From positions 1,240,001 to 1,304,000 of the forward strand of contig NZ_CP034593.1 in assembly GCF_003971195.1 (NCBI RefSeq): a DNA stretch of 64,000 nt, in the 5' to 3' direction. The stretch comes from Flaviflexus ciconiae. GTDB lineage: Bacteria; Actinomycetota; Actinomycetes; Actinomycetales; Actinomycetaceae. A model generated the notes under the pieces. It searched no databases, was not told where the DNA came from, and was given only the letters and a program-made list of their open reading frames with translations. A program made the translations under genes and the position numbers. Shown one piece after another: positions 4,242-59,044 of this stretch (position 1 is its first letter; each line of letters opens with the position of its first letter).

Positions 4242-5368
4242 ACAGTACCAAGCGAGGAGGCAGTACGGGAAGCCCTCGGCACCGTGCTTGATCCTGAAAT
4301 TCGTCGTCCAATCACCGATCTCGACATGGTGCGTTCTGTCGACATCGACAATGGCAATGTTGCCGTCGGCATCGATCTCACCACGCAGGGATGTCCGTTG
4401 CGTGACACGATCTCGTCTGACATCGAAGAGGCAGTCGGCAAGGTCGAAGGAACCCAGGCCGTGACCGTTGACTTCGGCGTTATGTCCGATGAACAGCGCA
4501 AGGCCCTGCAAACTAAGCTTCGCGGCGGAGCTCCCGAGGCGGTTATCCCGTTCTCGCAGCCCGGCTCGCTAACTCGCGTCTACGCAATCACGTCCGGTAA
4601 GGGTGGCGTCGGCAAGTCGTCAATGACCGCTAACCTCGCCGTTGCCCTCGCCAAGCAGGGACTGCGTGTGGGCGTTGTTGACGCCGACATTTACGGACAC
4701 TCGATCCCCGCCATGCTCGGCGTAACCCAGCCCCGACCCGCGTGGAAGACATGATCATGCCGCCCGTTTCACAGGGCATCAAGGTCATCTCCATTGGCAT
4801 GTTCACCCAGGGCAACACCCCCGTCGTGTGGCGCGGACCCATGATGCACAGGGCGCTCCAGCAGTTCCTTGCCGACGTCTACTGGGGCGACCTTGACGCC
4901 CTTCTCCTCGACCTTCCCCCGGGCACCGGCGACGTCGCCATCTCGGTCGCGCAGCTTCTGCCGAACTCCGAGATTGTCGTTGTCACCACCCCGCAGCTCG
5001 CAGCCTCGCAGGTTGCTGAGCGTGCTGGCGCAATGGCGGCGCAGACCAACCAGAAGGTCATCGGCGTTATCGAGAACATGTCCCACCTTGAGCTCCCGGA
5101 CGGAACAAAGATGGACCTGTTTGGTTCCGGCGGTGGCGAAAAAGTTGCCGCCGAGCTCACGAAGATCCTTGGCTACGAGATCCCTGTCCTCGCACAGATC
5201 CCCCTCGAGCAGGAACTCCGCGAGCAGGGCGACAATGGCACCCCGCTGGCCGGTACCGACTCCGAGTCCCCCGCATCGACCGCGATTCACGGCATTGCGG
5301 ACAAGCTCGCGCACCGTGCACGCGGCCTGGCAGGTCGCTCCCTCGGACTCAGCCCGATCAACAACTGA
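4239..5368 (+). pseudogene. mrp: Mrp/NBP35-family Fe-S cluster carrier ATPase, frameshifted as given
   Basis: Mrp proteins are cytosolic P-loop ATPases that carry and deliver Fe-S clusters. The N-terminal part (about 1-95) is a DUF59/MIP18 domain with TQGCPLRDTI. The ATPase part has the deviant Walker A SGKGGVGKSS near residue 118 and continues with GDVAISVAQLLP and IGVIENMSHLELP. The frame breaks in the C run 4731-4734: one further C reads through as QPPTRVEDMIMP and gives one 376-residue protein. Without it there are two pieces, 4239-4754 and from about 4742 onward. The defect is probably a sequencing or assembly error. Start ATG 4239 appears leaderless, and the gene is followed by a terminator. 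Confidence 0.85.
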
Positions 5369-5402
5369 TCGCGCGCCGATCAGCCTGATCAACCCGTGAC
5401 GC

Positions 5403-5430
5403 TGTGGGCCTCCCAAATGGGAGGCCCACA
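5403..5430 (+). terminator. Terminator between mrp and tatB
   Basis: A perfect 12-bp stem (5403-5414 with 5419-5430) has a 4-nt loop. It lies 34 bp after the mrp stop, in the 303-bp convergent gap before tatB. I see no other element or convincing gene in that gap. Confidence 0.8.
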
Positions 5431-5671
5431 CTCATGTCTGCATTATTCTCAGGAACTCATGTCCCCAAGAGCACGAGGGAAAGCCGACTTGCGAAGCGCG
5501 GCTGCCTGAGCAATGATGACCGGCCTATCGAACAGCGCGCGGCAACTCTTATCCGCTATGCCACTGATGTAGCGGGCGCCCGTTCACAATAATCGGATTA
5601 TTCTAGACGGGATCATTCCAGCCGGTTTGTCGCCGAATCCGTGTCCCGACGTGGCCTCCCGTGGCCCAGAA

Positions 5672-6169
5672 TCAGGTTGCCTGATCGTCGAACGGAACCG
5701 TATCCCGGACGGCGGTTGCAGTCCCAGCGGCGGTGCCGCTGGCAGCGGACGTAGCCGGCGCCGTTGCGGCGGGAGAGGTCGTTGCGGTTGCTGTTGCTGT
5801 GCCAGCCGCAGCCGTTCCAGCGGCGGCGGCCGTTGCGGTCGCCGCGGCGGCTGTGGGAACCGAACGAGGTGTTGAGACTGGACGGGAGGTTCGGGAGGGA
5901 ACACGTGCCGGAGGCTCGTCCTTGAGCGCTTCCTTGACGATCCTGCGCGGATCGTACTGGCGCGGGTCGAGATTCTTGAGCTCCTCAAAGTCGGGCCCGA
6001 GTTCTTCCTTGACCCTGGCTTTCGCACCGGTGGCGATGTTCTTGACCTCGCGAATGAGGCGGCCGAGCTGCGCTGCGAGCTCCGGGAGCTTCTCGGGACC
6101 AACAATAATGACAAGAATGAGCGCAAGGACGATGAACTCAGTCGTGTTGATTCCCATGCCGACCATCAT
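5672..6169 (-). CDS. tatB: Sec-independent translocase subunit TatB
   Basis: This 165-residue protein has the TatA/B architecture: a short N-terminal membrane helix (TEFIVLALILVIIVGPEKLP, with the Gly-Pro hinge), an amphipathic helix (ELAAQLGRLIREVKNIATGA) and a long soluble tail. It is called TatB for the ...VGPEKLPELAAQLGR pattern and for its position next to mrp, as in mycobacteria. The last 70 residues are an Ala/Thr/Pro low-complexity tail that is not conserved in the family. ATG 6169 follows GAAGG; ATG 6157 (MGINTTEF) is equally possible. With TatC it would form the receptor for folded twin-arginine substrates. Confidence 0.85.
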   Translation of the reverse strand: MMVGMGINTTEFIVLALILVIIVGPEKLPELAAQLGRLIREVKNIATGAKARVKEELGPDFEELKNLDPRQYDPRRIVKEALKDEPPARVPSRTSRPVSTPRSVPTAAAATATAAAAGTAAAGTATATATTSPAATAPATSAASGTAAGTATAVRDTVPFDDQAT

Positions 6170-6395
6170 ACCCGGCCTTCACATTTCGGACATGGTACTG
6201 AGGGACTAGACGAGAAGCGTTCTGGACCACATTTCCCGCCAAATATCCTTGGAAATCCCGAAGTGACAGAAATTCTTGTGACAGGTTAGTGGCTGGATGA
6301 GCATGCTCTGTCCCGAATGGTCAACGGCACGGCTTGAAACAGCGGAACGTGCCGGTTTCATGGGTAAGATGGTCCGCAGATACAAGGAGGACCGC

Positions 6396-7028
6396 ATGTC
6401 GAGTGACAAGGCCCAGCTGTGGGCGTTCGCCGAAGAGCAGACAACCGAGGACGAACTTCTCGCGGGGGCTCGGGCCGCCGCCGATGATCTTGGCATCGCG
6501 GCAACGAGTCCGGCCACGGGGGCGCTCCTCCGCCTCCTCGTTTCCACGTCCCGCGCACAGACGGCGGTGGAAGTGGGCACCGGCGCGGGAGTCTCCGGCC
6601 TCTACCTGCTCCAGGGCAATCCCACCCTCACTCTGACAACAATCGACGTTGAGAGCGAAGCACAGCGGTGTGCACGCGAGCTCTTTGCCCGCGCCGGAAT
6701 CCGAGCATCCCGCACCCGCCTGATCAAGGGCCGTTCCGCGGACATCCTCCCCCGCCTTGCAGATCGGTCCTACGACATGGTGCTCGTCGACGGGTCCGCC
6801 GAAGAGGCACCGGGCGATGTTGAGGAAGCCCTCCGTATCCTCCGTCCCGGCGGTCTCCTGATCGTGGCTCGTGCCCTTCTTGATGGTCGGGTCGCCGATC
6901 CCGCTCGCCGCGAACCGGACACCGTGGCGTTGCGCGGCCTCGTCCGCGACGTTCTCGAGCGCAGCCCCATGTCCTCTATCGTCCCGATCGGAGCGGGCCT
7001 GTTGCTCGCTCAGACACGGAGCGAATAA
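6396..7028 (+). CDS. SAM-dependent O-methyltransferase (Methyltransf_3)
   Basis: This 210-residue class I methyltransferase resembles the COMT-like proteins found beside sigE in mycobacteria. The SAM-binding motif I is VEVGTGAGVSGLYLL near residue 50. Motif II is MVLVDGSAEE, and the post-II stretch is LRILRPGGLLIVARALLDG. ATG 6396 is chosen because AAGGAGG lies five bases upstream; upstream in-frame codons lack support. It is divergent from tatB. The natural acceptor is unknown. The sigE, rseA and htrA genes that separate this family from tatB in M. tuberculosis are absent here. Confidence 0.85.
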   Translation: MSSDKAQLWAFAEEQTTEDELLAGARAAADDLGIAATSPATGALLRLLVSTSRAQTAVEVGTGAGVSGLYLLQGNPTLTLTTIDVESEAQRCARELFARAGIRASRTRLIKGRSADILPRLADRSYDMVLVDGSAEEAPGDVEEALRILRPGGLLIVARALLDGRVADPARREPDTVALRGLVRDVLERSPMSSIVPIGAGLLLAQTRSE

Positions 7029-7180
7029 ACCCACCCGCGGCAGGAGCTCCCCCACTTAAGTTTGGCGCTCCCCAACTCGCGGAAGTTCCCGTTCTTGGCA
7101 GCACCGGCTCCATGTCATAGCGACAGTGGCTCCTCGAGTCCAATCACGGTAGCTCCACTCGTTGAAGCGGGATGGATCCC

Positions 7181-7722
7181 ATGGTGACGTTTCGCAGACT
7201 TGCCGATACCGAGGAGGACCTGCTCGAGACTTTTCTCTATCTCGCTATTCATCAGGAAGATCCCACAAATCCGGTGTCTCGGTCGGTTCTTGAGCTTCCG
7301 GAGCTTGCTACATATATCAGTAACTGGGGTCGGCGCAGTGACCACTGCCTCGTTGCCGAGGTCGGCGGCGTCGTCATCGGTGCCGTCTGGTGCAGGATGT
7401 ACGCCGGCCAGGTAACCGGCTATGGCTTCGTGGATGATCAAATCCCCGAGCTCACCATGTCTCTTCTGCCCGAATATCGGGGACGGGGTATAGGAAGTGA
7501 GCTGCTGGGACGGCTTTTCGAGTTGTTGCAAGAAAAGGGCTTCGAGCGGGCTTCCCTGTCCTGCCAAGTATCAAATCCTGCTTATCGTCTCTACCAACGA
7601 ATGGGTTTCGAGACCCTCCGCCTTGGCGACGGGATGCGGTCATGGTCATTGAACTCGAAAAATCACAGCGAACCGGATCAAACAGGGGTGGGTCCGGGCC
7701 GGGAAACACGAGTAGGACATAG
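7181..7722 (+). pseudogene. GNAT-family N-acetyltransferase, frameshifted near the 3' end
   Basis: The GNAT core is clear, with the acetyl-CoA loop LLPEYRGRGIGSELLGRLFE and the C-terminal strand NPAYRLYQRMGFETLRLGDG. As given, the frame runs on to 7828 through a hairpin and into DUF3117 antisense, adding about 50 residues unlike the family. One extra G in the run 7631-7633 gives DGDAVMVIELEK, a normal GNAT ending, and a stop at TAG 7720-7722, just before the hairpin at 7726. The corrected protein has 180 residues. ATG 7181 has GGGATGG as its ribosome binding site; ATG 7172 is an alternative. The substrate is unknown. Confidence 0.75.
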
Positions 7723-7725
7723 GAA

Positions 7726-7759
7726 ATCCCGGGCCTTAGCGTTAGCCAAGACCCGGGAT
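7726..7759. terminator. Bidirectional terminator between the GNAT and DUF3117 genes
   Basis: ATCCCGGG (7726-7733) pairs with CCCGGGAT (7752-7759), and the stem continues inward through CTT/AAG and GC/GC with two mismatches to a GTTA loop. It lies in the gap between the corrected GNAT stop and the convergent DUF3117 stop and can serve both. Confidence 0.7.
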
Positions 7760-7771
7760 GTGAAGCTGGTT

Positions 7772-7939
7772 CTAGCTCACTACTGCATTGAGTGCCGCAC
7801 CAAGCTCTGCTGCTTCATCAGCGTTTAGCTCGATGACAAGGCGTCCACCGCCATCAACAGGAATTCTCATGACGATTCCGCGGCCTTCCTTTGCCACTTC
7901 AATCGGTCCATCACCCGAGCGGGGTTTCTGCGCTGCCAT
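7772..7939 (-). CDS. DUF3117 small conserved actinobacterial protein
   Basis: A 55-residue ORF starts at ATG 7939 (MAAQKPRSGDGPIEV) and ends at TAG 7774. It contains the family's conserved core MRIPVDGGGRLVIEL and the C-terminal DEAAELGAAL. An AAGGAGAT ribosome binding site lies upstream. DUF3117 proteins are small soluble proteins nearly universal in Actinobacteria, with no known function. The family lies in the same chromosomal neighbourhood in mycobacteria, between the LOG gene and the methyltransferase. Confidence 0.9.
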   Translation of the reverse strand: MAAQKPRSGDGPIEVAKEGRGIVMRIPVDGGGRLVIELNADEAAELGAALNAVVS

Positions 7940-8006
7940 GGTTTATCTCCTTAACTAAAGGTCGTCTCTAGTTTACGGCATCACGGCCCGGAGAGGGAGA
8001 AGTATG

Positions 8007-8783
8007 TCACGTACCGTTCGGTCTATTGCCGTCTTCGTCCTTGCCGTTGACCTTGTCAGCCACCGCGCTAATACCCTTGAGGATAGCTTCGAGGGCCTCC
8101 TCGGCCGTATCAACGACGGTAATGAGATCCATGTCTTCCGGGGAGATCATGCCTTCCCCGACCTGCTTGTCCTTGATCCAGTCAACGAGGCCTCCCCAGT
8201 ATCCGGAATCGACAAGGACGACGGGGAACGACATGACCTTGCGGGTCTGAACGAGAGTGAGGGCCTCGAAGAGCTCATCGAGGGTGCCGAAACCGCCGGG
8301 AAGAACAATGAAGCCCAGCGAGTACTTCACGAACATCATCTTGCGGATAAAGAAGTACCGGAAGTTGATGCCAAGATCGACGTAGTCGTTCATGCCCTGC
8401 TCGAACGGAAGCTCAATGCCAAGGCCAACGGAAATGCCCTTCGCGTCGACCGCGCCCTTGTTCGCGGCTTCCATGATTCCCGGCCCTCCGCCGGTGATGA
8501 CCGAGAAGTCATGCTCAACCAGTTTGGCGGCGATGTCGGTGGCGAGCTGGTAGTTGGCGTTCTCGGGCTTGGTCCGCGCGGAACCGAAGATCGACACGGC
8601 CGGGCCGAGGTCAGCCAATGCACCAAATCCTTCGACGAACTCCGCCTGGATTCTCATCACGCGCCACGGGTCAGCATGGAGCCAGTCGGAATCCTGGTTG
8701 GGTGCAAGCAGCCTCGCATCCGTTGTCGACTTCGGGATCTGGTCGCCCCGCAGGAGCACGGGGCCGCGTCGATATGACTTCAT
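8007..8783 (-). CDS. LOG-family protein (TIGR00730), putative nucleotide phosphoribohydrolase
   Basis: This 258-residue Rossmann-fold protein has the LOG signature PGGFGTLDE near residue 162, the nucleotide loop VITGGGPGIMEAANKGA, and FGSAR near residue 66. Bacterial and plant LOG enzymes release the base from cytokinin-type nucleoside 5'-monophosphates, and some members cleave AMP, so a nucleotide ribohydrolase activity is likely while the physiological substrate is uncertain. An N-terminal extension of about 45 residues is common in the actinobacterial clade. ATG 8783 follows AAAGGA at a normal distance. It is monocistronic between DUF3117 and lpdA. Confidence 0.88.
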   Translation of the reverse strand: MKSYRRGPVLLRGDQIPKSTTDARLLAPNQDSDWLHADPWRVMRIQAEFVEGFGALADLGPAVSIFGSARTKPENANYQLATDIAAKLVEHDFSVITGGGPGIMEAANKGAVDAKGISVGLGIELPFEQGMNDYVDLGINFRYFFIRKMMFVKYSLGFIVLPGGFGTLDELFEALTLVQTRKVMSFPVVLVDSGYWGGLVDWIKDKQVGEGMISPEDMDLITVVDTAEEALEAILKGISAVADKVNGKDEDGNRPNGT

Positions 8784-8920
8784 ATCATGTCCTTTCGTTC
8801 TTCGCCCACAGTACCGAATCGCTCGGTGAGCGCCGCTTCGCTATCTCGCCGGATGACCAGATTGATCGCAGGAACGAACCAAGTCGGCGGATTCACCCGC
8901 GATTTCCAGCGTTACAGCCG

Positions 8921-10441
8921 CTAGGCCTGGTCGGCAAAGAGTTCCCGGATGTGCTGAGCATCAACCGAGTGTCGGAGCTGCCGTGCCGCTTCGGTAATCG
9001 AGCCGGACAGGGACGGATACACCGTAAAGACGGAAGCCATGTCGTCAGCTGTCATACGGGAGGTGACCGCGAGCGCAATCGGCAAAATGTATTCGGAGGC
9101 CGCCGGGGCCACGACGACACCGCCAATAACGATGCGAGTTGAACTGTCAGCAATGAGCTTGACGAAGCCGTCGTTCATCCCCTGCATCTTCGCCCGCGGG
9201 TTCCGCATGAGAGGAACGATCGTCATGACGGCGTCGAGGCCTTCGTCGACATGCTTCTGGGTGACACCCACGGTCGCGATCTCGGGTGCCGTGAAGATGT
9301 TCGCGGCGACCTTCGACACGTCGAGAGGCTCGACGTAGTCGCCCAGCGAATGGTTCATGGCGATCCGCCCCTGCATGGCTGCCACGGAGGCCAGCGGATA
9401 GGAACCGGTGACATCACCGGCGGCGTAGACGCGGAAGGCGGTTGTGCGGGACACCTTGTCGACAAGGATGTGGCCGGATTCTTTGAGGGTCACTCCGGCT
9501 TCTTCAAGGCCAATGCCTGACGTGTTCGGGATGGAGCCCACCGCCATGAGGCAGTGCGAGGCCTCGATCTCCCGACCATCGGACAGCGTGACAATAACGC
9601 CGTCTTCGGTACGGCGCACCGACTGGGCGCGGCTCTTGTTGAGGATGGTCATGCCGCGGCGGGCGAAGACATTCTCGATGACCTTGGCGGCGTGCGGGTC
9701 CTCGTTGGGGAGGACCCGGTCACGAGACGACACGAGGGTGACTTGCACGCCGATCCCCATGTAGGCACCGGCGAACTCCGCACCCGTAACACCGGATCCG
9801 ACCACGACCAGGTGCTCAGGCAGTTCCGTCATGTTGTACATCTGGGTCCAGTTGAGAATCCGCTCCCCGTCCGGCTTCGCGTCGGGCAGCTCCCGGGGGG
9901 TCGCACCGGTGGCAACCAGAACCATTTCCGCTTCGAGAGTCTGCTCGGTTCCGTCCGCAAGCTTCGCCAAGACCAGCCGACACCCGTTATCGCCGATCCC
10001 GGTGAGGATCGTACCCTTACCGTTCAGTATTGTGACCCCTTCATCCGACAGGCGTTCGTGAATGTCGTCGGATTGGCGGGTGGCAAGGTCTCGGATTCGG
10101 GCGTTGATTGCCGGGAAGCTCACGGTCCACGGCTCGTCCGAGGCAACAATGCCGAGTTCGTCGGCAGATTCGACGTTGTGCAACCATTCGGCGGACGCAA
10201 TGAGGGTCTTGGAGGGCACCACGTCGGTGAGGACGGCGCTGCCTCCCATGCCTTTGTCTTCGATGATGGTGACGCGTGCACCGAGCTGGGTGGCGGTCAG
10301 GGCGGCCTCGTAGCCGCCCGGTCCACCCCCGATGATGACGACGCGGGATCCTTCGCGGACCCGGGACGCTCCCGGGATCTTAGATTTCGGTGCGCCCGAC
10401 GCGGTCGGACCTGTCGGCCTGGGATCAGTTACGTTCTCCAC
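8921..10441 (-). CDS. lpdA: NAD(P)H-quinone dehydrogenase LpdA
   Basis: This 506-residue flavoprotein belongs to the pyridine nucleotide-disulfide oxidoreductase family. FAD binds at VVIIGGGPGGYEAA and NAD(P) at LVVVGSGVTGAEFAGAYMG; the second FAD motif is VYAAGDVTGSYPLASVA. The active-site CxxxxC disulfide of lipoamide dehydrogenases is replaced by GGSAVLTDVVPSK, which is diagnostic of the LpdA quinone reductase group. The first 28 residues are a disordered extension; the start as drawn is GTG 10441 without a ribosome binding site. It is divergent from PNP with 86 bp between them, as in the lpdA-deoD region of mycobacteria. Confidence 0.88.
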   Translation of the reverse strand: MENVTDPRPTGPTASGAPKSKIPGASRVREGSRVVIIGGGPGGYEAALTATQLGARVTIIEDKGMGGSAVLTDVVPSKTLIASAEWLHNVESADELGIVASDEPWTVSFPAINARIRDLATRQSDDIHERLSDEGVTILNGKGTILTGIGDNGCRLVLAKLADGTEQTLEAEMVLVATGATPRELPDAKPDGERILNWTQMYNMTELPEHLVVVGSGVTGAEFAGAYMGIGVQVTLVSSRDRVLPNEDPHAAKVIENVFARRGMTILNKSRAQSVRRTEDGVIVTLSDGREIEASHCLMAVGSIPNTSGIGLEEAGVTLKESGHILVDKVSRTTAFRVYAAGDVTGSYPLASVAAMQGRIAMNHSLGDYVEPLDVSKVAANIFTAPEIATVGVTQKHVDEGLDAVMTIVPLMRNPRAKMQGMNDGFVKLIADSSTRIVIGGVVVAPAASEYILPIALAVTSRMTADDMASVFTVYPSLSGSITEAARQLRHSVDAQHIRELFADQA

Positions 10442-10515
10442 GTGAACATTGTGTCAAAGAACGCACGCGGTGGGGCACTCTTCAGAATGGGTCATGCAAA
10501 TCGGTCACGAGAATG

Positions 10516-10530
10516 TACCGTAGTGCTATG
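10516..10530 (+). promoter_or_regulatory. Candidate leaderless -10 element of the PNP gene
   Basis: TACCGT at 10516-10521 is followed by six bases and the ATG at 10528, and no Shine-Dalgarno sequence is present. The spacing matches mrp, pfk and the DUF3017 gene in this window. Confidence 0.35.
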
Positions 10531-13001: not shown

Positions 13002-13021
13002 GGGCTGGCAAGACTAGCTAA

Positions 13022-13056
13022 ACACATGACCCGGCCAATCTGGCCGGGTCATGTGT
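13022..13056 (+). terminator. Terminator after the phosphosugar mutase gene
   Basis: A perfect 16-bp stem (13022-13037 with 13041-13056) has a 3-nt loop, flanked by a further AGCTAA / TTAGCT pair. It ends the PNP-mutase operon and faces the convergent nucleoside operon. Confidence 0.85.
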
Positions 13057-13859: not shown

Positions 13860-13862
13860 GGA

Positions 13863-32551: not shown

Positions 32552-33648
<1,097 letters not shown>

Positions 33649-44256: not shown

Positions 44257-47200
44257 TCACGTCAGCACGCCCTCAAGGAGCGAGGTGCGGTTGCCGAACC
44301 GATGGTTGGTTGCCGAGATTGCCTGCTCCTGAATGTAGGGAAGGAGCTCGATGTGGCCCGCGGGGGTCAGCGGATCGGAGTAGATCCCAACATCAATGGA
44401 TCCATCGATTGCTTCGGCAAGTGCCACCGGGTCTTCGCCGAGGACACGGAAACGGACGCCGTCGGCGGAGACCGACATGCCCTTGGCGCGGCGGTGCCAA
44501 TCCTCGGTCGACTCGACCGTGAGGAGCACGGCGTTATTCGTAAGGAACTCGGAGACGGATACCGGTAGCGGTTCGGCTGCCGAGACTTCGACACCGGCAC
44601 CGAGTGCAATGGCACCCGCGGCGCTTGCCAGCACGTCACCGACGGGCTGGCCTGCTCCGAGCCTGATGACGACTCGCGGGAAGCCCAGGTAGCGGAGGAT
44701 GTTGAGCTCCACGCCAAGCTGCGATGGATCGTGCTCGGCAAGGAATTCTTCAGTGAGCGCCTTGTCCATGCCGGCCAGGGTTTCCTTTGTCCGGGCTAGG
44801 TCGGGTAGTTGCTTAGCGATGCTGGCCGCGTCCTGCAGAACAGGATGCGAAACATTGCCGTCGGCAACGCCCCTGAAGTCCGGCTCAACATGTCCAAGTC
44901 CGTACAGGTAGCTCGGTCCGCCCGCCTTCGTACCTGTTCCGACGGAGGAACGCTTCCAGCCACCAAAAGGTTGCCTGCGAACAATGGCACCCGTGATCGT
45001 GCGGTTGACGTACACGTTTCCGGCGTGGACGTGGTCCAGCCAGTAGGCGATCTCCGCAGAATCGAGCGAGTGAATTCCTGCGGTCAAGCCGAACTCGACC
45101 GCGTTCTGCCATTCAATCGCCTCCTGGAGGGAATCGGCTCTCATGACGCCGAGGATCGGACCAAAGTACTCGGTCAGGTGATACTCGGAGCCCGGTTGCA
45201 CGCCGGAGCGAACACCGGGGGTCCACAGTTTGTCACCGAGCTGACGGGGCTTCACAACCCAAGACTGGCCGGGCTCAAGCTGGGTGAGACCCCGCAGGAG
45301 CTTGCCCTTGGCCTCTTCGGTTACCGGCCCCATTTCCGATGATAGGTCGTGCGGGTAACCAATCTTGAGTGACTTCACCGCATCGACCAGCTGGTTGCGG
45401 AATCTCTTCGAGAAGCCGATGGAGCCCACGAGAATCACGAGCGATGCTGCCGAACACTTCTGTCCCGCGTGACCGAAGGCGGAGACAACAACGTCCTTGA
45501 CCGCCAAGTCAATATCGGCGTGCGGGGTGACGATGATGGCATTCTTACCCGACGTCTCTGCAAAGACTCGCAGGTCCGGACGCCAGGAGCGGAACATGCG
45601 GGCGGTGTCGATTGAGCCGGTGAGAATCACCTGATCAACCGCCTCAACAAGATGCTTACCCAAGCCCTTGTCAGCACCCGGTACCGACTCGTCGAGGTTA
45701 ACGAGTTGGAGAACGTCGCGGGACACTCCCGCCTCCCACATGAGCTCGGCAATGAGGGAGCCGATGCGGCGGGTGACCCGGGCTGGCTTGAACAGGACGC
45801 TGGAGCCCGTTGCAAGGGCCGCAAGAACGCCGCCTGCCGGGATGGCGATTGGGAAGTTCCAGGGCGGGGTGATGAGTGTGGTCTCGACCGGCTTGAACAC
45901 GGCGCCATCGACATTCTCGAGCGCGGGTGCCAGCGAGGCGTAGTACCGGGTGAAGTCGATGGCTTCGGAAACCTCAACATCGGCCTGGTCGATGGCCTTG
46001 CCTGCCTCCGAGCCGGCGGCCTCGATGAGCCTGCCGCGGTTAGCTTCGAAGACATCTGCGATCTTGAGAAGGACCGCTGCCCTTTCGGTGGCGGGCGTCG
46101 CCGCCCACTCCTTGCTGGCATCGATAGCGGTCTCCACCATCTCGTCGAGCTCGGCGAAGGTTGACTGGGTGTGCGTTGTTGCCGTCTGGGTTCCCTCGAT
46201 TGAGTTCGGGATCCGCTCCGCAATATCCCGCGCCCACGCAAGGTTGGCGGGCAGGGACGGATCAGTGTCCGGGGTATTGGAGAACTCTTCAGCGAAGGGC
46301 TCCGGCGCCTTGTTCCGGTCCTGGCGCCGGCGGGGGCCGTGCGGGACGGTGTCCTTGCGAGCGGCGGCCTTCACGAAACGGTCCGCTTCGAGCTCGAATA
46401 CGGAGCTGTCTTCGAGGGCGAACACGTTCGACATAAAGTTCTCGGGGTGGCGTTCTCCTCGAGCCTGCGCACCAGGTAGGAGATGGCGACGTCGTACTCT
46501 TCCGGTTTGACGACCGGCACGTAGTAAAGGAGGGGGCCAACATCATCGCGTACGGCGTTCGCTTGCGGGGTGGCCATACCGGCCAGCATCTCCACATCGA
46601 CCTCGGTGCCGATCTCGAGGCCATTATCTCGGGCTAGGAGCACACCGTAAGCGAGAGTGAAGAGATTCTGTCCGGCAATGCCGATGCGAACGGCATCGAC
46701 ATTCTCCTTCGTGAGGGAGTCTTCAAGCATAACAAGGTAGTTGGCGTCCGTGTCCTCCTTCGTGGGTTGGACCGTAAGCTCCCACCCCCTCATGGCAGCA
46801 TCGACTCGCTCCATTGACAGGTTCGCGCCCTTCACGACTCGGACCTTGATCGGTGCCCCGCCCCGGGCGCGGCGTTCCTTCGCCCATACCGTCAGGTCGG
46901 CAAGAGCCTCCCTGCCGTCGGGCAGGTACGACTGGAGAACAATTCCCGAGTGATAGGTCAGGAACTCATCCCGATCGAGGATGTTCTTGAACACCGCGAT
47001 CGTCAGGTGCAGGTCCTTGTACTCCTCCATGTCCAAGTTGATGAAGGTGTTGTTTTCACGGGCTACCCGGAAAACGGGAAGCAACTGGTTGACAGCATGC
47101 TCAACGGCCTCGTTGAAGCCGTAGGCGGCGTGGGGGCCAATCACCGAGGAGACCTTGAGCGACACGTAGTCGACATCGTCCCGGCGAATAAGCTCGGTGG

Positions 47201-47668
47201 TGGCGGCGAGCCTCCGGCTCGCTTCTTCGTCCCGAGGACGGCTTCACCAAGCAGGTTCAGGTTGAGCCTCGATCCGTCGGCCCGGAGCTTGGCAATGGTC
47301 GGGCCAAGCTTCGATGGCGTGACATCTGCGACCAGGTCGCCGACGAGGGCAGCAAACAGCTGGGTGGCGACGGTGCGGGCCAGCCCGGGTGCGACGGGCG
47401 CAATCCTGCCGCCGCCCTTCGCGAGTACCGACAGATACCCGGGTAGGAAGGAAGCGTCCTTGCGGGACATTTCATCGAGCTTCTCCGCAACAACATGCTC
47501 ATCCTCGGGGCGAATCACACCATCGACGAAGGACACCGTGTAGTCGAGGCCACCCGGATGGTCCAGCACCTGCGACAGAAGTTTCGACGCATACGGAGTG
47601 GAATACTGTCGGGCATTATCCGACCACTCCTGCGCCTTGGCTATTGATCGCGTTACGAGATCCATCAT
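44257..47668 (-). pseudogene. putA: Bifunctional proline dehydrogenase / P5C dehydrogenase PutA, two frameshifts as given
   Basis: PutA oxidises proline to glutamate. The N-terminal FAD proline dehydrogenase domain includes FVDGVIRPEDEHVVAEKLDE, LEEYK-type NLDMEEYKDLHLTI, VRVVKGANLSMERVDAAMRG and YLVRRLEENATPENF. The C-terminal aldehyde dehydrogenase domain has ETSGKNAIIV and the catalytic Cys in GHAGQKCSAASLV. The gene reads in three pieces. One base added in the run 47231-47233 joins GEAVLG to DEEASRRLAATTELIRRDD, and one in 46444-46447 joins ENATP to ENFMSNVFALED. This gives about 1137 residues, normal for PutA. The gene follows DUF3017 by 9 nt. I think sequencing error is likelier than a real break. 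Confidence 0.88.
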
Positions 47669-47677: not shown

Positions 47678-47950
47678 CTAATCCACCCGAATCATGGCAG
47701 CCCAGCTCGACAGTGAGGCGAGGGCAATGCCAAAAGCGGCGAGAGTAAACGAGTCCCACCAGCGACCGCGAATATCGGGAACAATTCCGGGTGGTAGGCA
47801 CATGCGTAAGAGTGCGAGGCCAATCATGCTGGCCGCGAGCGCGCGCGTTGCTAGGACCGGCCCTGCGGTGAATGCCAGTACGACAACGATGCCGATCCAC
47901 ACCGACATCACGCCATAGAGGGCCGGTGCCGGTACGCGCTTTTCTCCCAT
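47678..47950 (-). CDS. DUF3017 small membrane protein
   Basis: This protein of about 90 residues starts at MGEKRVPAPALYG with three hydrophobic helices (VWIGIVVVLAFTAGPVLATR, SMIGLALLRMCLPP, FTLAAFGIALASLSSWAAMI). The segment RMCLPPGIVPDIRGRWWDS is the DUF3017 core. The function is unknown; in other Actinobacteria the family lies near folD, purH and mdh. ATG 47950 is chosen because TACAGT ends six bases upstream (leaderless). putA follows by 9 nt, so the two are probably cotranscribed. Confidence 0.78.
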   Translation of the reverse strand: MGEKRVPAPALYGVMSVWIGIVVVLAFTAGPVLATRALAASMIGLALLRMCLPPGIVPDIRGRWWDSFTLAAFGIALASLSSWAAMIRVD

Positions 47951-47956
47951 ACGATT

Positions 47957-47962
47957 ACTGTA
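47957..47962 (-). promoter_or_regulatory. Candidate leaderless -10 element of DUF3017-putA
   Basis: TACAGT on the minus strand ends exactly six bases before the DUF3017 ATG. The whole divergent gap to the flavoprotein start is only 28 bp, so the upstream promoter parts must lie inside the neighbouring gene. Confidence 0.4.
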
Positions 47963-47978
47963 TCGGTTGGAGGAAAAC

Positions 47979-49028
47979 TTGATCACAATTTGCGGCACCG
48001 GACTGGCGGGCCTACGAATCGCGGCAGAACTGCGAGAACGTGGATATGACGGGCTTTTGAGGGCTATCGAGAGGGAGGGCATTCCACCCTACGATCGGCC
48101 ACCCCTGACCAAAGTCCTATTTGGGGAGTATAGAAAACCGCTTTCCGCCGAAGGTCTCGGTGAGCTCTCCCAGCTCTGCGATGAGGTCATTACCGCCAAT
48201 GTTGAATCGCTCGACGGCACCGCGGTGGTCGCAAACGGCACCCGCTACGAATCGGACATAACGGTCCTTGCGCTGGGGGCCGATGCTCGCAACGCTATCG
48301 GCGGCGCACTGACCATCAGGACCCGCGACGACGCGGCAAAGCTTCGCGCTGTCGAAGGTCAGGTCACGATTGTGGGTGGCGGCTGGCTCGGAAGCGAACT
48401 GGCTTCGTCCTACGCGGAAGCAGGCAGGCAGGTGAACCTCGTTGAGATCGCGGAAGACATCCTGCCCGTCCTCGGCCCGGGGGCAAGAAAGGTCCGTGTG
48501 GCACTCGAGGACCTGGGAGTAAAGATTCTCCGTCAGATTCCCGACAATCCCGGGACTCTCGTCGAGGCAACCGGCGCTATCCCCAACACGCTCGGACTGG
48601 ACCTCACAACAGACGGATGGGGCCGCACCAACATGCCGGGTGTCTACGCGGTTGGCGACTGCGCCGAGATCTCCATCGGCCCCTCCTCCGGCCATTGGAA
48701 CACTGCCCTGCACCAGGCAACCAGGGTCGCCGAGGCAATCATGACCGACCCGCATGCCGACCCCGTTCCGTTAACCCCCGATGTGTTCTCAACCATTGCG
48801 GGACTGGAGCTTCTCTTCATCGGGCATGCGGCAGGCACTCCCGTGGTCCTCGAGGACGGCTCCCGTACCCTCTGGATCAAGGACGGCAGGCTGTCTGGCG
48901 GGCTGACCATTGACCGTCCCGCCGACGGCGTTGCCTTGCGCAAGAACATCGGCGCATCCCTCTCCGAAGAAGCCGCCGCCGATCCCCTACCGCTGAAGAA
49001 GATTCTTCGCGCCCAGCAAACCGTATAG
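47979..49028 (+). CDS. FAD-dependent pyridine nucleotide oxidoreductase (ferredoxin-reductase-like)
   Basis: This 349-residue flavoprotein has an N-terminal FAD fold (ITICGTGLAGLRIAAELRERG), the family motif PPYDRPPLTKVLFGE, a second dinucleotide fold (VTIVGGGWLGSELASSYAEAG) and the FAD-contacting NMPGVYAVGDCAE. It resembles ferredoxin and rubredoxin reductases but is about 50 residues shorter in the NAD-domain region. Start TTG 47979 is chosen because GGAGG lies five bases upstream; TTG 47967 overlaps that site. The electron partner is unknown. A terminator follows. Confidence 0.82.
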   Translation: MITICGTGLAGLRIAAELRERGYDGLLRAIEREGIPPYDRPPLTKVLFGEYRKPLSAEGLGELSQLCDEVITANVESLDGTAVVANGTRYESDITVLALGADARNAIGGALTIRTRDDAAKLRAVEGQVTIVGGGWLGSELASSYAEAGRQVNLVEIAEDILPVLGPGARKVRVALEDLGVKILRQIPDNPGTLVEATGAIPNTLGLDLTTDGWGRTNMPGVYAVGDCAEISIGPSSGHWNTALHQATRVAEAIMTDPHADPVPLTPDVFSTIAGLELLFIGHAAGTPVVLEDGSRTLWIKDGRLSGGLTIDRPADGVALRKNIGASLSEEAAADPLPLKKILRAQQTV

Positions 49029-49064
49029 AAACCGCAGAACGGCGGCGCGATAGCAACACGGAGA

Positions 49065-50769: not shown

Positions 50770-50784
50770 GGTTCTCCTCATGGA

Positions 50785-50870
50785 CGTTCTACCGCTATGC
50801 CCAGGCGTGCGACGCGGTAGTCGCGGCTACTCCCCGATGGTCATCCATCTTTCTCGCCAGTTGCAGCCGA
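50785..50870 (-). promoter_or_regulatory. ZTP riboswitch (pfl motif) in the purH leader
   Basis: Read on the minus strand, the leader has the conserved pfl elements in order. GGCTGC and ACTGGCG are followed by the hairpin GATGG-ATGA-CCATC, then CGGGGAGTAGCC closing the first helix. After a short linker comes GCCTGGGCA inside a second hairpin closed by CTACCGC and GCGGTAG. The known class binds ZTP/ZMP (AICAR) and turns on purine and one-carbon genes. It ends about 16 bp before the purH start, next to the ribosome binding site. Confidence 0.9.
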
Positions 50871-50877
50871 GACGAGT

Positions 50878-51816: not shown

Positions 51817-51899
51817 CAGATCTCCATCCGTTGAGGCTATGGCTATTTAAGCACGAGGTTTTGCGGCATGACCAAAGTCATAACGTATTGCACATTCTT

Positions 51900-52571: not shown

Positions 52572-54018
52572 TCTTCTTTCCTTCAGCATCCGGGGCCGTA
52601 CGAGCGGTGATCGCAGTGATTGCGGTCGACGTGTCATCGACCGTCACCGACGGGCTCTCTCCCCCATTGTCTTCCATGGTGTCCCCCTCGTCGGTCACCA
52701 CCAGCTTTGTCTCACTACCCGTCTCATCGTGATGATTGCCCTGACCATTGCCACGAGTGACCGGCGCACTCACGCTGCCACCGTTTTGCACATCGTCGGT
52801 GTCATGAGCATTCTGAGCAACAACGGACTGCTTAGAGTCAGCGGCCTTGGCGCGGATCGTGCTGGCCTTGTCTTTCGCCATCCCCAAAACCTCGCGATAC
52901 TTCGCGACCGAGGTGCGGTGAGCCAGGATCATGCCGAGAAGGAACGGCACGCCGAGGATCAGGGCTCCCATGCCAGCGGCGATTGCCGGCTCGGCACCCG
53001 TTTCGCTCATGCGTTCCGGGCCGATGGAACCCCGGGAGGCCAGGGCAAGGAAGGAGCACCCAAGCGCCACAATACCCACCTGGATTGCGCCCGTCAGGGC
53101 GGCTTCTCCAAGGGCCGGGAAGGCCCTCGCCTGCCGCATGCCCACAAAAAGTAAAACGAGTACGACGATCGCAAGGATGAACGGGGCACCATCCCCCGGC
53201 TGCGGCAGGGCGCCAAAGAGCGGGATCGCTGGAAGCGGTGCCGACTCAACGCCTAGTACAGAGAATGAGCTCCCGGTGCCAATGGAGAAGCCTGCGCCAA
53301 CAAGGTAGGCCAGTGTCCAGAGAATAAAGGTCGGTAGGTATGAGAGCTGGAAGACCCAGAGCATGACGTTCGAGTGCCATTCCAGGATGTAGTAGCTGTT
53401 GATCGTGACGATCTGCGACCACCCGGCGATAACTGCGGCAACGAAGACGAGCGTGGCAAGAATGAGTCCGACGGCAAGGGCGCGCCGCCCGAGCATGAGT
53501 CCGTCGTATATGGCTCTGCCGGCCGGTGTTGTGAAGAAGCCGGTCCCGAGCCAGTCGGTGCGGTTCTTGGACGTGAGGACGGCAAGGAAAGCCATCGTCG
53601 CGGCGCCAATGCAGGCCTGCCACCAGCTTGTTCCGGTCGGGGTGATTTGCCCAAGAACCGCGGGGACCGCGGCGGAGGCTGCTATAAGAACCAGAATGTC
53701 GATCCAGTCGCGCACCGGCAACTTCCTGACAAACCCCACGAAAGCTACGAAAGTGAGAAGAGTGATGAGGAGCGGCGGCAGGGAGATTGCGACGCCGTCA
53801 AAGTGCAGGGAGCCGCCGAAGGCCGTAAGCCACCAGCCGGTTGTGATTCCCGCGACGTCCTGCCAGGACGTGGTACCGAGCGCCGGTGAATCCGCCATAA
53901 CCGTGTATGCGAAGATGCCAAGCACGACAACGATGGCCCACCCGTAGAGGATGGGCTGAATCGCTGCGAACGCGAGGCGAATCGGGCTAGTACGAGCATC
54001 GGCTTTCATCGCTTCCAT
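52564..54018 (-). CDS. DUF6350 (PerM-like) multi-pass membrane protein
   Basis: This 484-residue protein has about ten hydrophobic helices up to residue 370 and a disordered acidic/Ser/Asn-rich C-terminal tail. The N-terminus FAAIQPILYGWAIVVVLGIF and the WLTAFGGSLHFDGVAISLPP loop are family features of actinobacterial DUF6350. The M. tuberculosis relative PerM, also directly upstream of purN, has been linked to cell division. ATG 54018 is drawn; ATG 54009 is possible. It overlaps purN by 8 nt. Confidence 0.8.
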   Translation of the reverse strand: MEAMKADARTSPIRLAFAAIQPILYGWAIVVVLGIFAYTVMADSPALGTTSWQDVAGITTGWWLTAFGGSLHFDGVAISLPPLLITLLTFVAFVGFVRKLPVRDWIDILVLIAASAAVPAVLGQITPTGTSWWQACIGAATMAFLAVLTSKNRTDWLGTGFFTTPAGRAIYDGLMLGRRALAVGLILATLVFVAAVIAGWSQIVTINSYYILEWHSNVMLWVFQLSYLPTFILWTLAYLVGAGFSIGTGSSFSVLGVESAPLPAIPLFGALPQPGDGAPFILAIVVLVLLFVGMRQARAFPALGEAALTGAIQVGIVALGCSFLALASRGSIGPERMSETGAEPAIAAGMGALILGVPFLLGMILAHRTSVAKYREVLGMAKDKASTIRAKAADSKQSVVAQNAHDTDDVQNGGSVSAPVTRGNGQGNHHDETGSETKLVVTDEGDTMEDNGGESPSVTVDDTSTAITAITARTAPDAEGKKND

Positions 54019-54152
54019 AATTCCAGTGATTGCGCGCCGCTTCGATTAACAACTCACCATCTCATTCATGAGAGGACTCTCATCAACCCTTCCTCCCCTC
54101 CTCATTCACACCCCCTTTAATGGATAATAGAAAACGAGTTAAAGGAGAAACC

Positions 54153-54587
54153 GTGTCACGAAAGCTGTGGATCGCCACCGGAACCCTCGGTGCGATTGGG
54201 GTCGTCGCCGCCACCAATATGGTGGGCGCAGATGCGACGGTCGTGGAAACACCCGCGGTATACATCGCCCCGGAGAAGGCGGCCGACGCCGAAGCGAACA
54301 CCTCAGCTGATCACACGGCGGAAGCCACGTCCGACAGCGCCGACATCGACACGATCTCGGTCACGGCGGTCTCCGCGACCACGCCCGAGCCCGCACCGGC
54401 ACCGGCGACCTCCGGCTCGACCGCCACGAAGTCCGCTCCAGCACCGGTCCAGCAGGCACCCGCCCAGCCCGCTCCGGTCGCTAACGCACCCGTCCAGCAG
54501 GTTGCTCCGTCCACCCAGTACTCGGCCGACTCCGGCTACTCCGCCGTCAGCGCATACTCGGCAGTATCCGCTGAATCAGCCGACTAA
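54153..54587 (+). CDS. Small exported Ala/Pro/Ser-rich protein, unrecognised
   Basis: This 144-residue protein starts at GTG 54153 with AAAGGAG five bases upstream. It has an N-terminal signal or anchor helix (LWIATGTLGAIGVVAATNMV), an acidic Ala-rich section, a Pro/Ala/Gln linker (PAPVQQAPAQPAPVANAPVQ) and a Tyr-Ser-Ala tail with repeated YSAVSA. GATAAT at 54123-54128 may be its -10. It is probably exported and low in structure. I know no family for it. A good terminator follows. Confidence 0.65.
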   Translation: MSRKLWIATGTLGAIGVVAATNMVGADATVVETPAVYIAPEKAADAEANTSADHTAEATSDSADIDTISVTAVSATTPEPAPAPATSGSTATKSAPAPVQQAPAQPAPVANAPVQQVAPSTQYSADSGYSAVSAYSAVSAESAD

Positions 54588-54603
54588 GGTCCGCCTAGCT
54601 CAG

Positions 54604-54630
54604 TGCCCGGAAGCGTTTCGCCTCCGGGCA
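54604..54630 (+). terminator. Intrinsic terminator after the small exported protein gene
   Basis: TGCCCGGA (54604-54611) pairs with TCCGGGCA (54623-54630), and GCG/CGC continues inside around a TTT loop. It is followed by TTTGCTTT, a classic intrinsic terminator. Confidence 0.85.
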
Positions 54631-54787
54631 TTTGCTTTCCCCACGAGAAGTACCTTGCAGGCGGTGCGTAACTCCCGGTTCTCGTGGTAGGCCGAAGGCG
54701 GTGCAGAGTTGGTCTCCGCACCGCCCTCGATAGCGTTATCTGGTGAGTGCCCGATTCTCGGTAAAACCGATCGGTCACTCCCGCCGG

Positions 54788-55705
54788 CTACGTGCCCTGG
54801 AGGATGCTCCTCGCGAGGTTAGCTGTCTCGGTCGGGGTCTTGCCGACGGAGACGCCGACGGCCTCGAGGGCTTCCTTCTTGGCCTGCGCGGTTCCGGCAG
54901 AGCCGGAAACGATGGCACCCGCGTGGCCCATCGTCTTACCCTCGGGAGCGGTGAAGCCTGCCACGTAGCCGACGACGGGCTTCGTCACGTTTGCCTTGAT
55001 GAACTCGGCTGCGCGCTCTTCGGCGTCGCCACCGATCTCACCGATCATGACGATCAGCTCGGTCTCGGGGTCAGCCTCGAATGCTTCGAGAGCATCGATG
55101 TGGGTCGTGCCGACGATCGGGTCGCCACCGATGCCGATGCAGGTAGAGAACCCAACATCGGAAAGCTCGTACATCATCTGGTAGGTGAGGGTGCCCGACT
55201 TGGAGACGAGGCCGATCTTGCCGGTGCCGGTGATGTTCGCCGGGGTAATACCAACGTTGGACTGGCCGGGGGTGATAATGCCAGGGCAGTTCGGGCCAAT
55301 CAGCTGAACGCCCTTCTGCTCCGCGTAGGCGCGGAACTCGGCAGTGTCGGCGACGGGGACGCCCTCGGTGATGATGACAACGAGTCGCATCCCAGCATCG
55401 ATGGCCTCGATGACTGCGGACTTCGTGAATGCCGGGGGCACGAAGATGACGGAGACATCGGCTCCGGTCGTCTCCTTCGCGTCGGCAACGGTTCCGAAAA
55501 CCGGGACCGAAACCTGGCCCGCTACCGCGCCGCCGGGGCCTACGGGAACAACATCGAAATCGACCGTCTGGCCGGCCTTCCTCGGGTTCGTTCCACCAAC
55601 GATCTGGGTGCCTGAACCCAGCATGCGAGCGGTGTGCTTGCGTCCTTCAGAGCCAGTGATGCCCTGGACGATGACCTTGGAGTTCTTGTCGAGAAAAATA
55701 GACAT
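54788..55705 (-). CDS. sucD: Succinyl-CoA synthetase alpha subunit
   Basis: This 305-residue subunit binds CoA and carries the phosphohistidine of the TCA enzyme that makes ATP (or GTP) from succinyl-CoA. It has the CoA-binding [16 protein letters not shown], the [12 protein letters not shown] loop and the active His in [15 protein letters not shown] 55705 is preceded by TAAGGAAG that overlaps the sucC stop. The tail ARSILQGT is normal. It is the second gene of sucCD. Confidence 0.95.
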
Positions 55706-55717
55706 GCCTTAACTTCC

Positions 55718-56881
55718 TTACGCCGCGAGCTCCGCAGCCTTCGCGGCTGCTCCGTCCATCGTGTCCATGATCGTCACGAGGGGGTGTGCCGCCTCTTCGA
55801 GGATCCGGCGTCCTTCCTCAACGTTGTTGCCGTCCAGGCGCACAACGATCGGCTTCGTAGCCGTGTCACCGAGGATTGCGAGAGCCTGGACGATGCCGTT
55901 GGCAACCTCGTCGCAGGCCGTGATTCCGCCGAAGACGTTGACGAACACGGAACGGACCTCGGGATCGCCAAGGATGACGTCGAGGCCGTTGGACATGACC
56001 TCGGCGGAGGCGCCGCCACCGATGTCGAGGAAGTTAGCGGGGCCAACCCGGTACTGCTCGCCCGCGTAGGCGACAACGTCAAGGGTCGACATGACGAGTC
56101 CGGCACCGTTACCGATGATGCCGACCTGACCTCCTTCAAGCTTCACGTAGTTGAGGCCCTTTTCCTTGGCCTTGGCCTCGAGGGGATTCTCTGCCGACTT
56201 GTCGACAAGCTCTTCGTGATCGGGGTGACGGAAGCCCGCGTTGTCGTCGAGGGAAACCTTGCCGTCAAGAGCAATGATCTTGCCATCGGGCGACTTGACA
56301 AGGGGGTTCACCTCGACGAGCGTGGCATCCTCTTCGACGTAGACCTTCCAGAGGTCGAGGATCACGGGAACGATCTTCTCAGCGTCCTCAGCATCAAAGC
56401 CAGCCTGGTTCACGATGTCGCGGGCGACCTCTTCGGTGATGCCAACGGTCGGGTCAACGGGCACCTTGGCGAGTGCATCGGGACGCTCGACAGCCAGCTG
56501 CTCGATCTCCATGCCGCCTTCCTTCGAGCACATAGCAAGGTAGCGGCGCTCGGAACGGTCGAGGAGAACGGAGAAATAGTATTCCTCAGCAATATCGGCG
56601 CCCTCGGCGATCATGACGCGATGCACGGTGTGGCCCTTGATGTCCATGCCGAGGATCTGGGAGCCGGCTTCTTCCACCTCCTCCGGTGTGCGTGCCAGTT
56701 TGACGCCGCCGGCCTTACCTCGGCCGCCGGTCTTCACCTGCGCCTTCACGACGAACAGGCTGCTGTTGAGTTCTTCTGCTGCTTGACGAGCTTCCAGAGG
56801 AGTTGTAGCTACACGACCAGCAAGCACGGGCACCCCGTGCTTGGCAAAGAGGTCGCGAGCCTGGTACTCGAAGAGGTCCAC
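55718..56881 (-). CDS. sucC: Succinyl-CoA synthetase beta subunit
   Basis: This 387-residue ATP-grasp subunit includes [36 protein letters not shown] (nucleotide loop), [20 protein letters not shown] (Mg2+ site) and [17 protein letters not shown] 56881 is chosen because the family starts at DLFEYQ and GGAAGG lies nine bases upstream; ATG 56899 would add six residues without a ribosome binding site. It is cotranscribed with sucD (12-nt gap). Confidence 0.94.
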
Positions 56882-56909
56882 GGAGGAGGTCCTTCCCATT
56901 GTGTCACGG

Positions 56910-56927
56910 TGTCTCGACTTCGAGACA
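56910..56927 (-). terminator. Small hairpin upstream of sucC
   Basis: TGTCTCG (56910-56916) pairs with CGAGACA (56921-56927) around a 4-nt loop, between the acyltransferase stop and sucC. It may end the acyltransferase message or form part of the sucC leader. Confidence 0.45.
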
Positions 56928-56977
56928 TCAGCTCAAGGATAGCAAGGGACCGGCCTTTCTGTGACCTGATTCCCAGT

Positions 56978-59044
56978 TTATTCCACGAACGAACGGAAAG
57001 CTCCGTCAACCGTCTCCGCGAAGAGGTACATTCCCTCAATATTTGGGTGCGTCTGGTCCGCCTGAAGCATCTGCGGCTGGGCCGAAACTGCGGCGTGCCA
57101 GTCGGCAACCGCAACGTTCGGGTACTCGCTCGCAATCTCACGAATATAGTCGTTCGACGCATCGATAAACGTGGACAGTCCGTAGATCGTCACGATGACA
57201 ATCATCCGGTCCGGCCCAAGCAGCTCGATGGTTTGACGAACAACATCCGGGTCGGGGATGCCGGCATTCGTACCGAAGTCCAGGATGACAGCACGGCGGA
57301 TCGTGCCATCGGCGAGGCCCTGCTCAACGAGAGCGGGAGCCTGATGCCACTGCCGGTTGGACTTCGCAATGAAGTTGATTCCGGGGAACTGGACCTCGAG
57401 ACCATCGGCAGAGGTCACGATCAGGGAATCACCAATCGCGGTGATCTCATCACCGGTCGGCATGGTCCAATCCCCCTCGGGAGTCTGGCCGCCATTTCCG
57501 TTATCGGGATCTTCCGAGCCTTCGGATTCACCCGGGTTCTCGGAACCGTCAGGATCCTCGGATCCATCCGGATTGTCCGTGCCATCCGGGCTCTGCGAAG
57601 CATCCGGGTTCTCAGATCTCTCGGGTTATCGGAGCCTGGGTTATCGGTGCCGGGAGCATCGGGGTTGTTGACGTTTTCGGAGCCCTCTCCCCCGTTTGCA
57701 TCTTCGGGTCCCGCCGGGTCTCCGGACGGATCGGGGGCGGTGTTGTTTTGCTCCTCGAAGCGCTTCTCGTTCTCCTCGATCTCGAGCTGGACGGAGGACT
57801 TCTCGGGGCGCTGGCGACGGCGATTCCGGTTCCCGCGACCATGATGGCGCCGGCAACGGTTAGGCCCACGGCGGCCGGGCTCCTCGTGGCGATGTGGTTG
57901 ACGGCGATCGAGATGGTTTCCTTGAAGCCGTTCTTGCGGATCGGGGTTTCGATGTAGTGGTAGGAGAACTCGCAGATACCGAAGGTCACAGCAACGGCGA
58001 GAGCGGAGCGAATCCAGAACTCGGTCGTGCCGGGGGCGGCGGGCCATAGCAGAGAAGCCATGACGAGGATCGGCCAGTGCCACAGGTAGATCGCGTAAGA
58101 ACGCGTGCCGACCCACCGCGATACTCGGTTGTCGGAGATCTTGGCAAGCCGTGAGCCGGGGGCGAGCATGGCGGCGATAAGTGCGACGGTGCAGATCGAG
58201 GCGAGGAGGATGCCGCCGCGGTAGGCGATCATCGACTGGTCTTCGAGCACGAGGAGCAAAGTCATGAGGCCCACGAAGCCGGCGATGCCGACGATCTGGC
58301 TGTAGCGCTGCCATGTTCCCACCATCCACGTGCCGCTCGGTGGTGCCCACGAGAAGGCGAGGGCAATGCCGAGCGTCAGGCCAAAGAGGTGGGTGTCGGT
58401 GCCGTAGTAGACGCGCGTGAGGTTCATCGGGTCCGCCATGATCGCCATGAGCAGTGCCGAAACTCCCGCCAGGCCAAGGGCTAGCCCCACGCGGGTCTGC
58501 CAGGTGCGGATCATCATGATGATGAGGATGAAGAGCGGTGGCCACAGCAGATAGAACTGTTCTTCAACGGCAAGCGACCAGAAGTTCTTAAACAGCAGCG
58601 GCGATGTTTGGTCGAAGTAGGACGAGCCGTGGGCAATCTCCAGCCAGTTGGAGGAGAACGTGAGGGCACCGAGAACCTGCCTGCCGATCCCCACCAGCAA
58701 GTCCCGGTTGATCAGGGCGGCCGCGGGTACAACGGTGACGACAAGGAAGATCAGGGCGGGTAAGAGCCGCCGGGCTCGGCGGGTCCAGAATCCCTTGAGA
58801 TCAACTTTCTTGGTTTTCCTGACCTCGCGGAGCAGGAGCGTGGTGATGAGGAAGCCGGAGACAACGAAGAACACGTCGACACCGAGGAAACCACCGGGCA
58901 GGGCTCCGGGGGTGATGTGGTAGATGACGACGGCGATAACAGCGAGTGCTCGCAGGCCGTCAAGGCCGCCGATAATGCCCCCGGGTCGGCCATCGGGTGG
59001 CGGCCTCGCCGCCTCCTTGGTGCAGATGTTTCTGCGGTGCTCAT
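56978..59044 (-). pseudogene. Second OafA-type acyltransferase with SGNH domain, three frameshifts as given
   Basis: With three bases restored this is a 689-residue paralogue of the 2072-4081 gene. It has MSTAETSAPRRRRGRHPMAD, then GGLDGLRALAVIAVV, ten helices (GVDVFFVVSGFLITTLLLRE, WSLAVEEQFYLLWP), an Asp/Glu/Asn/Pro/Gly-rich linker, and a C-terminal SGNH domain with AIGDSL, DFGTNAG and ADQTHPN. The breaks are in the runs 58978-58982, 57805-57808 and 57623-57625; each needs one more base of the same kind. ATG 59044 follows AAAGAGGTG. A surface polymer O-acyltransferase role is inferred. Three breaks in one gene could mean decay, but all match the pattern seen in housekeeping genes here. Confidence 0.82.

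Follow-up and report, generated by a model that had tools for sequence, protein, structure and literature searches.

The closest described counterparts of the changes reported here are errors at runs of identical bases in long-read assemblies. In the available portion of one report, PacBio-derived assemblies of a high-G+C bacterium are 1 bp short in G/C homopolymers of 4-10 bp (PMC11649196), and in that of another, nanopore deletion errors peak following stretches of four to five identical bases (PMC12007338). The Modpolish study, in its available part, describes nanopore errors driven by base modification that are mainly mismatches, indels not being the source (PMC10687267). The DNA examined here is a 64,000-base stretch of a Flaviflexus genome (Actinomycetaceae; G000:C1:1240001-1304000), hereafter the window, which is part of a single contig of 2,830,639 bases (a 2.83-Mb chromosome), and in which the genes mrp, mdh, putA and a gene for an acyltransferase are each split between reading frames, and a GNAT acetyltransferase gene leaves the frame of its family. 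Like the long-read errors in the portions of PMC11649196 and PMC12007338 that are available, the changes in this genome (G000) are single-base deficits, mainly in G/C runs of 4-6, that fragment genes. In the accessible text of the nanopore case (PMC12007338) A/T errors outnumber G/C errors, unlike in G000, and G000 also differs from these published cases, as far as their available parts go, in that a C run followed by GAG is short about ten times more often. A context beyond run length that raises the error rate is a likeness to the Modpolish study (PMC10687267), which in its available part deals mainly with mismatches, whereas the signal in G000 consists of deletions. We consider it very probable that the short runs arose as errors of the deposited consensus, not as mutations, and that the DNA of the organism is intact.

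G000 stands as the sole genome of its species. It was compared with Flaviflexus congeners (G002-G005), whose nucleotide identity to G000 is approximately 76-77%; completeness is 96.1% for G000 and 97-100% for five congeners. Beyond the window, 1.2 Mb of the 2.83 Mb was examined, of which 960 kb is contiguous, together with stretches from two congeners. Searching by tblastn with all open reading frames (ORFs) was dropped because antisense ORFs swamped the signal, controls included, and called congener genes were used instead. The Flaviflexus literature was searched for the making of this assembly and no account was found. The five genes of the window in which an earlier sequence-only reading had proposed nine one-base losses are as follows.

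4239..5368, plus strand: mrp/ApbC iron-sulfur carrier gene in two frames, with a break at the C run 4731-4734 and the Pfam domains FeS_assembly_P and ParA on its two pieces.
7172..7828, plus strand: GNAT acetyltransferase ORF, its GNAT domain complete in the window frame and ending at about residue 146-149 of 218.
32610..33594, minus strand: mdh, malate dehydrogenase, in three frames, with breaks at 32822-32825 and 32769-32771; Pfam Ldh_1_N/C.
44257..47668, minus strand: putA, proline dehydrogenase/aldehyde dehydrogenase, with breaks at 47231-47233 and 46444-46447 and the Pfam domains Pro_dh and Aldedh on separate pieces.
56978..58994, minus strand: acyltransferase with a C-terminal extension, with breaks at 58978-58982, 57805-57808 and 57623-57625; Pfam Acyl_transf_3.

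Comparison with intact relatives confirms eight of the nine frameshifts as one-base deficits, namely one in mrp, two each in mdh and putA and three in the acyltransferase gene. DNA alignment with MAFFT leaves the window with a lone one-base gap against all four congeners at position 4732 in mrp, at 32825 and 32772 in mdh, and at 47232 and 46447 in putA. The frame changes detected by tblastn with congener genes agree, being found with three genomes for mrp (the fourth appearing in the all-ORF scan), with four genomes for mdh, and with four genomes at each of the two sites in putA. Congeners are the only intact comparators for mrp and putA. For mdh and the acyltransferase, near-identical intact proteins were found among the matches listed in protein searches. 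One of these, P0001, is a malate dehydrogenase of 328 amino acids (aa), 327 of whose 328 residues are encoded by the window, spread over three frames. The longest contig of its source is 124,055 bases, so the protein cannot come from the 2,830,639-base contig of G000.

The acyltransferase gene has a lone one-base gap at 57809, in the run 57805-57808, against all five aligned sequences, and another at 58980, in the run 58978-58982, against four of the five, the fifth being a paralogue from G005. With tblastn, one congener places a frame change at 57804. The site at 57623-57625 was left undecided by the congeners and is confirmed by P0139, an intact acyltransferase of 672 aa from a Flaviflexus metagenome-assembled genome and also among the listed matches, which follows the window through three frames in turn, with junctions at 57807 and 57622-57625. 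The window encodes 662 of its 669 scored residues, and its first three residues lie in yet another frame. As with P0001, the longest contig of the source (385,103 bases) excludes an origin in the contig of G000. Judged by this match, what was called as an ORF at 56981-57625 forms the C-terminal portion of the acyltransferase and is no separate gene.

The remaining proposed loss, at 7631-7633 in the GNAT gene, was not borne out as a private one. P0121, a listed match of 215 aa that is 98% identical, keeps the frame of the window to its last residue, and the near-identical P0122 crosses 7631 unbroken in another window frame, its own frame change lying further upstream. P0123, a more distant GNAT relative, has the family C-terminus in the other frame. 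By these comparisons a frame change does exist at 7631-7633, but because the two near-identical sequences, P0121 and P0122, share the window frame there, it is not a loss private to the G000 assembly. Sister sequences with the same frameshift were thus found for the GNAT gene, while mrp, mdh, putA and the acyltransferase gene are intact in relatives. The C-terminal tail of the GNAT protein lies outside the family frame and is shared with the 98% identical sequence, the frame change in P0122 being a different one; possibly the gene is decaying within the species.

The count of one-base deficits was extended beyond the window by pairwise alignment to congener genes. It excluded gaps longer than 2 bases, compensated gaps, and any gap no more than 30 columns from an alignment end or with a flank identity below 17/30. 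Over 587,509 aligned coding bases, G000 has 42 one-base deletions, compared with 5 one-base and 3 two-base insertions; the 42 merge 35 deletions found against G002 (559 kb) and 28 found against G004 (292 kb). As controls, G004 against the genes of G002 gave 4 deletions of one base and 1 of two bases over 272,908 bases, and G002 against the genes of G004 gave 1 deletion and 4 insertions in 271,639 bases. Deletions and insertions of one base stand at 4/0 and 1/3 in the control pair, beside 42/5 in G000, and the losses are one-sided. A three-way test, run on 245 kb of coding sequence in alignment and counting events with a flank identity of at least 10/20, found 21 private one-base deletions in G000, 3 in G004, and 1 (with 2 insertions) in G002; at a flank identity of 9/20, G000 has a further 2 one-base deletions, together with two insertions and a 4-base deletion. 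Among the genes broken outside the window, named by NCBIfam on the congener orthologue, are guaA, trmD, pntA, pntB, ftsX, cydD, pta and cimA, and the deficit in each of these eight was seen against both G002 and G004. In aligned coding sequence, a deficit occurs every 14 kb when all 42 are counted, or every 17 kb for the 34 at G/C runs described below, and if this density held over an assumed 2.4 Mb or so of coding DNA, there would be some 140-170 such sites. Within the 960 kb, deletion density in G000:C1:1120001-1360000 is approximately three times that of the rest. Low copy number near the replication terminus was considered as a cause of this excess and rejected, dnaA lying at 2.18 Mb and the skew turn at about 0.66-0.72 Mb, away from the window.

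The losses depend on both the length and the base of the run. Of the 42 deletions, 34 lie at G/C runs of at least 4 bases (length before loss) and 8 lie elsewhere, some of which may be real differences or alignment noise. Under the assumption that the lost base is the base of the run, losses in coding sequence climb from 4/13,707 at C3 (0.03%) to 10/2,926 at C4 (0.3%), 22/702 at C5 (3%) and 2/18 at C6 (11%). Among runs of at least 4 before loss, 34 G/C runs were lost with 3,617 present, compared with 1 A/T run lost with 869 present (p=0.009); the single A/T loss is among runs of four (1/736). For runs of at least 5, the corresponding figures are 24 lost with 696 present for G/C and 0 lost with 130 present for A/T.

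A stretch of 22.7 kb outside the window (G000:C1:1197046-1219683) is 94% identical to G004 over a background of approximately 77%, and probably represents an element shared recently. Scoring in it was limited to runs whose flanks matched, which retained 21 of the 29 C5/G5 runs in the G004 copy. Seven of these 21 are C4/G4 in G000, five of the seven lying inside called G004 genes, and no C5/G5 run of G000 is shorter in G004. In addition, a C4 of G000 corresponds to C3 in G004, and an A run of G000 exceeds its G004 counterpart by one base. An insertion-sequence-like match between G000 and G002 at 98% showed no run change, but contains just 10 runs and is uninformative.

The ribosomal RNA (rRNA) operons allow copies within the same chromosome to be compared. 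The operon at 1486 kb is one C short at CCCCGAGG, and the operon at 910 kb is one C short in a C6 run; in each case the other two copies in G000 and the three copies in G002 keep the full run. Both deficits, in two of the three operons, fall inside 23S. The remaining differences between operons are substitutions or A-run changes in the spacers, which may be real or may be errors of the same kind. Among the latter, A runs in the spacers of the operons at 910, 1486 and 1493 kb are six or seven bases long and differ in length by one base from operon to operon.

The sequence-only reading had further tied the losses to CYCGRG-like contexts, mostly CCCGAG, while pointing out that intact sites exist. 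The latter is borne out by 147 occurrences of CYCGRG in the window, nearly all of them without a detected loss. The link itself is partly right, in that run length comes first and CCCGAG, not the whole of CYCGRG, acts on top of it (CTCGAG, having no run, was not scored). With the window included, C5 runs in coding sequence were lost in 8/41 cases when GAG follows and in 14/661 otherwise (p=1e-5), and the Mantel-Haenszel odds ratio for GAG over C4 and C5 is approximately 10. Since the sequence-only reading had been made on the window, the test that excludes it is the fair one. Outside the window, GAG follows 5 of the 18 lost C5 runs and 31 of the 605 retained ones (one-sided p=0.002), the strongest effect among the neighbours of 1-3 bases that were tried. 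For C4 outside the window, GAG has no significant effect (1 of 8 lost runs, p=0.32), no enrichment was found for GGG after C5 (1 of 22 lost runs, p=0.51), and none of the seven shortened C5 runs of the 22.7-kb stretch has GAG.

Consensus error, which the sequence-only reading had favoured, very likely is the cause, to which point the excess of one-base deficits, their dependence on run length and base, the 23S deficits in single copies, and the intact near-identical malate dehydrogenase and acyltransferase found elsewhere. Most likely the chromosome was built from single-molecule long reads with too little accurate short-read correction, the platform, like the integrity of the DNA of the organism, being something that we infer. 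G/C runs of 4-6 bases would then have been recorded one base short, the more often the longer the run, and more often too where GAG follows a C run. The resulting shifts of frame would make the assembly falsely show broken mrp, mdh, putA and acyltransferase genes, and outside the window broken guaA, trmD, pntA, pntB, ftsX, cydD, pta and cimA genes, among others.

That the deficits might instead be real mutations, arising through deletion slippage in G/C runs in a mutator strain or through pseudogene decay, is very improbable, in agreement with the sequence-only reading, which had regarded true hypermutation as far more surprising than error. In its favour, slippage occurs naturally at homopolymers, mrp, mdh and putA can be dispensable, and the deficits are present in the sole sequence of the strain. 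Some real indels do exist, since one-base gaps are balanced in the 22.7-kb stretch and the GNAT frame change is shared. However, slippage should also gain bases, and there are 42 one-base deletions to 5 one-base insertions. It is expected in A/T runs too, of which one was lost at length four and none at length five or more. Real mutation would require guaA, trmD and ftsX all to be broken at once, and two 23S copies each to be short at a place of its own where the other copies are full, and this joint breakage is not expected of slippage. Nor does it sit well with the 327/328 and 662/669 residues of intact near-identical proteins that the window still encodes across the breaks of mdh and the acyltransferase gene. 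A defect in NucS was considered as a mutator cause and none was found: G000 has the gene for a NucS-type mismatch endonuclease, and its frame is open. It is scarcely credible that the runs serve programmed frameshifting or phase variation. Identical bases in a row do typically mark slippery or contingency sites, but at these places a single frame is open in congeners and near-identical sequences, and the extra base is present in congeners at the mrp, mdh and putA sites and at two acyltransferase sites, so that the short runs are not conserved. Moreover, the runs are short and scattered over unrelated housekeeping genes, with up to three per gene and two in rRNA.

It is unlikely, though less so than either of these, that a modified base at CCCGAG, or at the wider CYCGRG, drives the artefact, with run length secondary, a reading that is a sub-case of consensus error and does not exclude it. 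The enrichment of GAG after C5, with and without the window, and the odds ratio of about 10 speak for it, as does the 23S loss in the 1486-kb operon, which is also at CCCCGAGG; modification-driven nanopore errors have been published, in the available part of that report mainly as mismatches (PMC10687267). Against it stand the absence of GAG from the shortened C5 runs of the 94% stretch, the lack of enrichment for GGG, and the non-significant result for C4 outside the window, and the same pattern would be produced by an ordinary k-mer effect in base calling. A methylase search of four families (PF00145, PF02384, PF07669 and PF01555) matched the first three in G000, including several matches of N6 type, and found no match to PF01555; none of those found in these families could be attributed to CCCGAG. 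Somewhat more doubtful still is the specific proposal that an unlisted base modification at CCCGAG disturbs the read-out at adjoining C runs, which would make the false frameshifts the footprint of an undescribed methyltransferase specificity.

Several observations weigh against consensus error as the full account. The loss is regionally uneven, with 23 of the 42 deletions in 155 of the 588 kb (1.12-1.36 Mb; p=1.3e-4, for an interval picked post hoc). Congeners often have a different third-codon base at the deficient site, and the assumption that the lost base is the run base is direct only in the 94% stretch and at the 23S sites. Within that stretch, one-base gaps taken together are balanced, 16 being shorter in G000 and 19 in G004 (first matched piece), and only the C5/G5 runs are one-sided. 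One frame change of the window, that in the GNAT gene, is common to other sequences, the intact malate dehydrogenase P0001 has no strain assignment, and the rRNA spacers contain long A runs that likewise vary between operons, so that bases other than G/C may be affected too. The available part of PMC11649196 gives only 3, 5 and 8 differences per genome, far below G000. Finally, the case is built on assembled sequence. Taken as consensus error, the finding is biologically ordinary but a useful warning, since annotation would list many false pseudogenes, mdh, putA, guaA and trmD included, and the CCCGAG bias is a small lead for holders of the raw reads.

Among the methylases, a region at L279:3092-15987 (G000:C1:1563092-1575987) contains a NaeI-type nuclease and a cytosine-5 methylase beside anti-phage genes resembling MzaC and MzaD (below NCBIfam cut-offs). 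The methylase adjoining the nuclease presumably acts on GCCGGC. A second cytosine-5 methylase, by the MZA-like defence genes, appears to be frame-shifted near its C-terminus.

Two further features of the window carry, or belong to genes with, a deficit.

47681..48088, minus strand: ORF of 136 aa with no Pfam match, with a one-base deficit near 47956-47958, in an A/T dinucleotide, against four congeners (lower confidence).
63805..64000, minus strand: piece of guaA (GMP synthase), the gene being broken at G000:1304939, 939 bases beyond the window.

The first of these, at 47956-47958, is a probable additional deficit site by comparison with the congeners.

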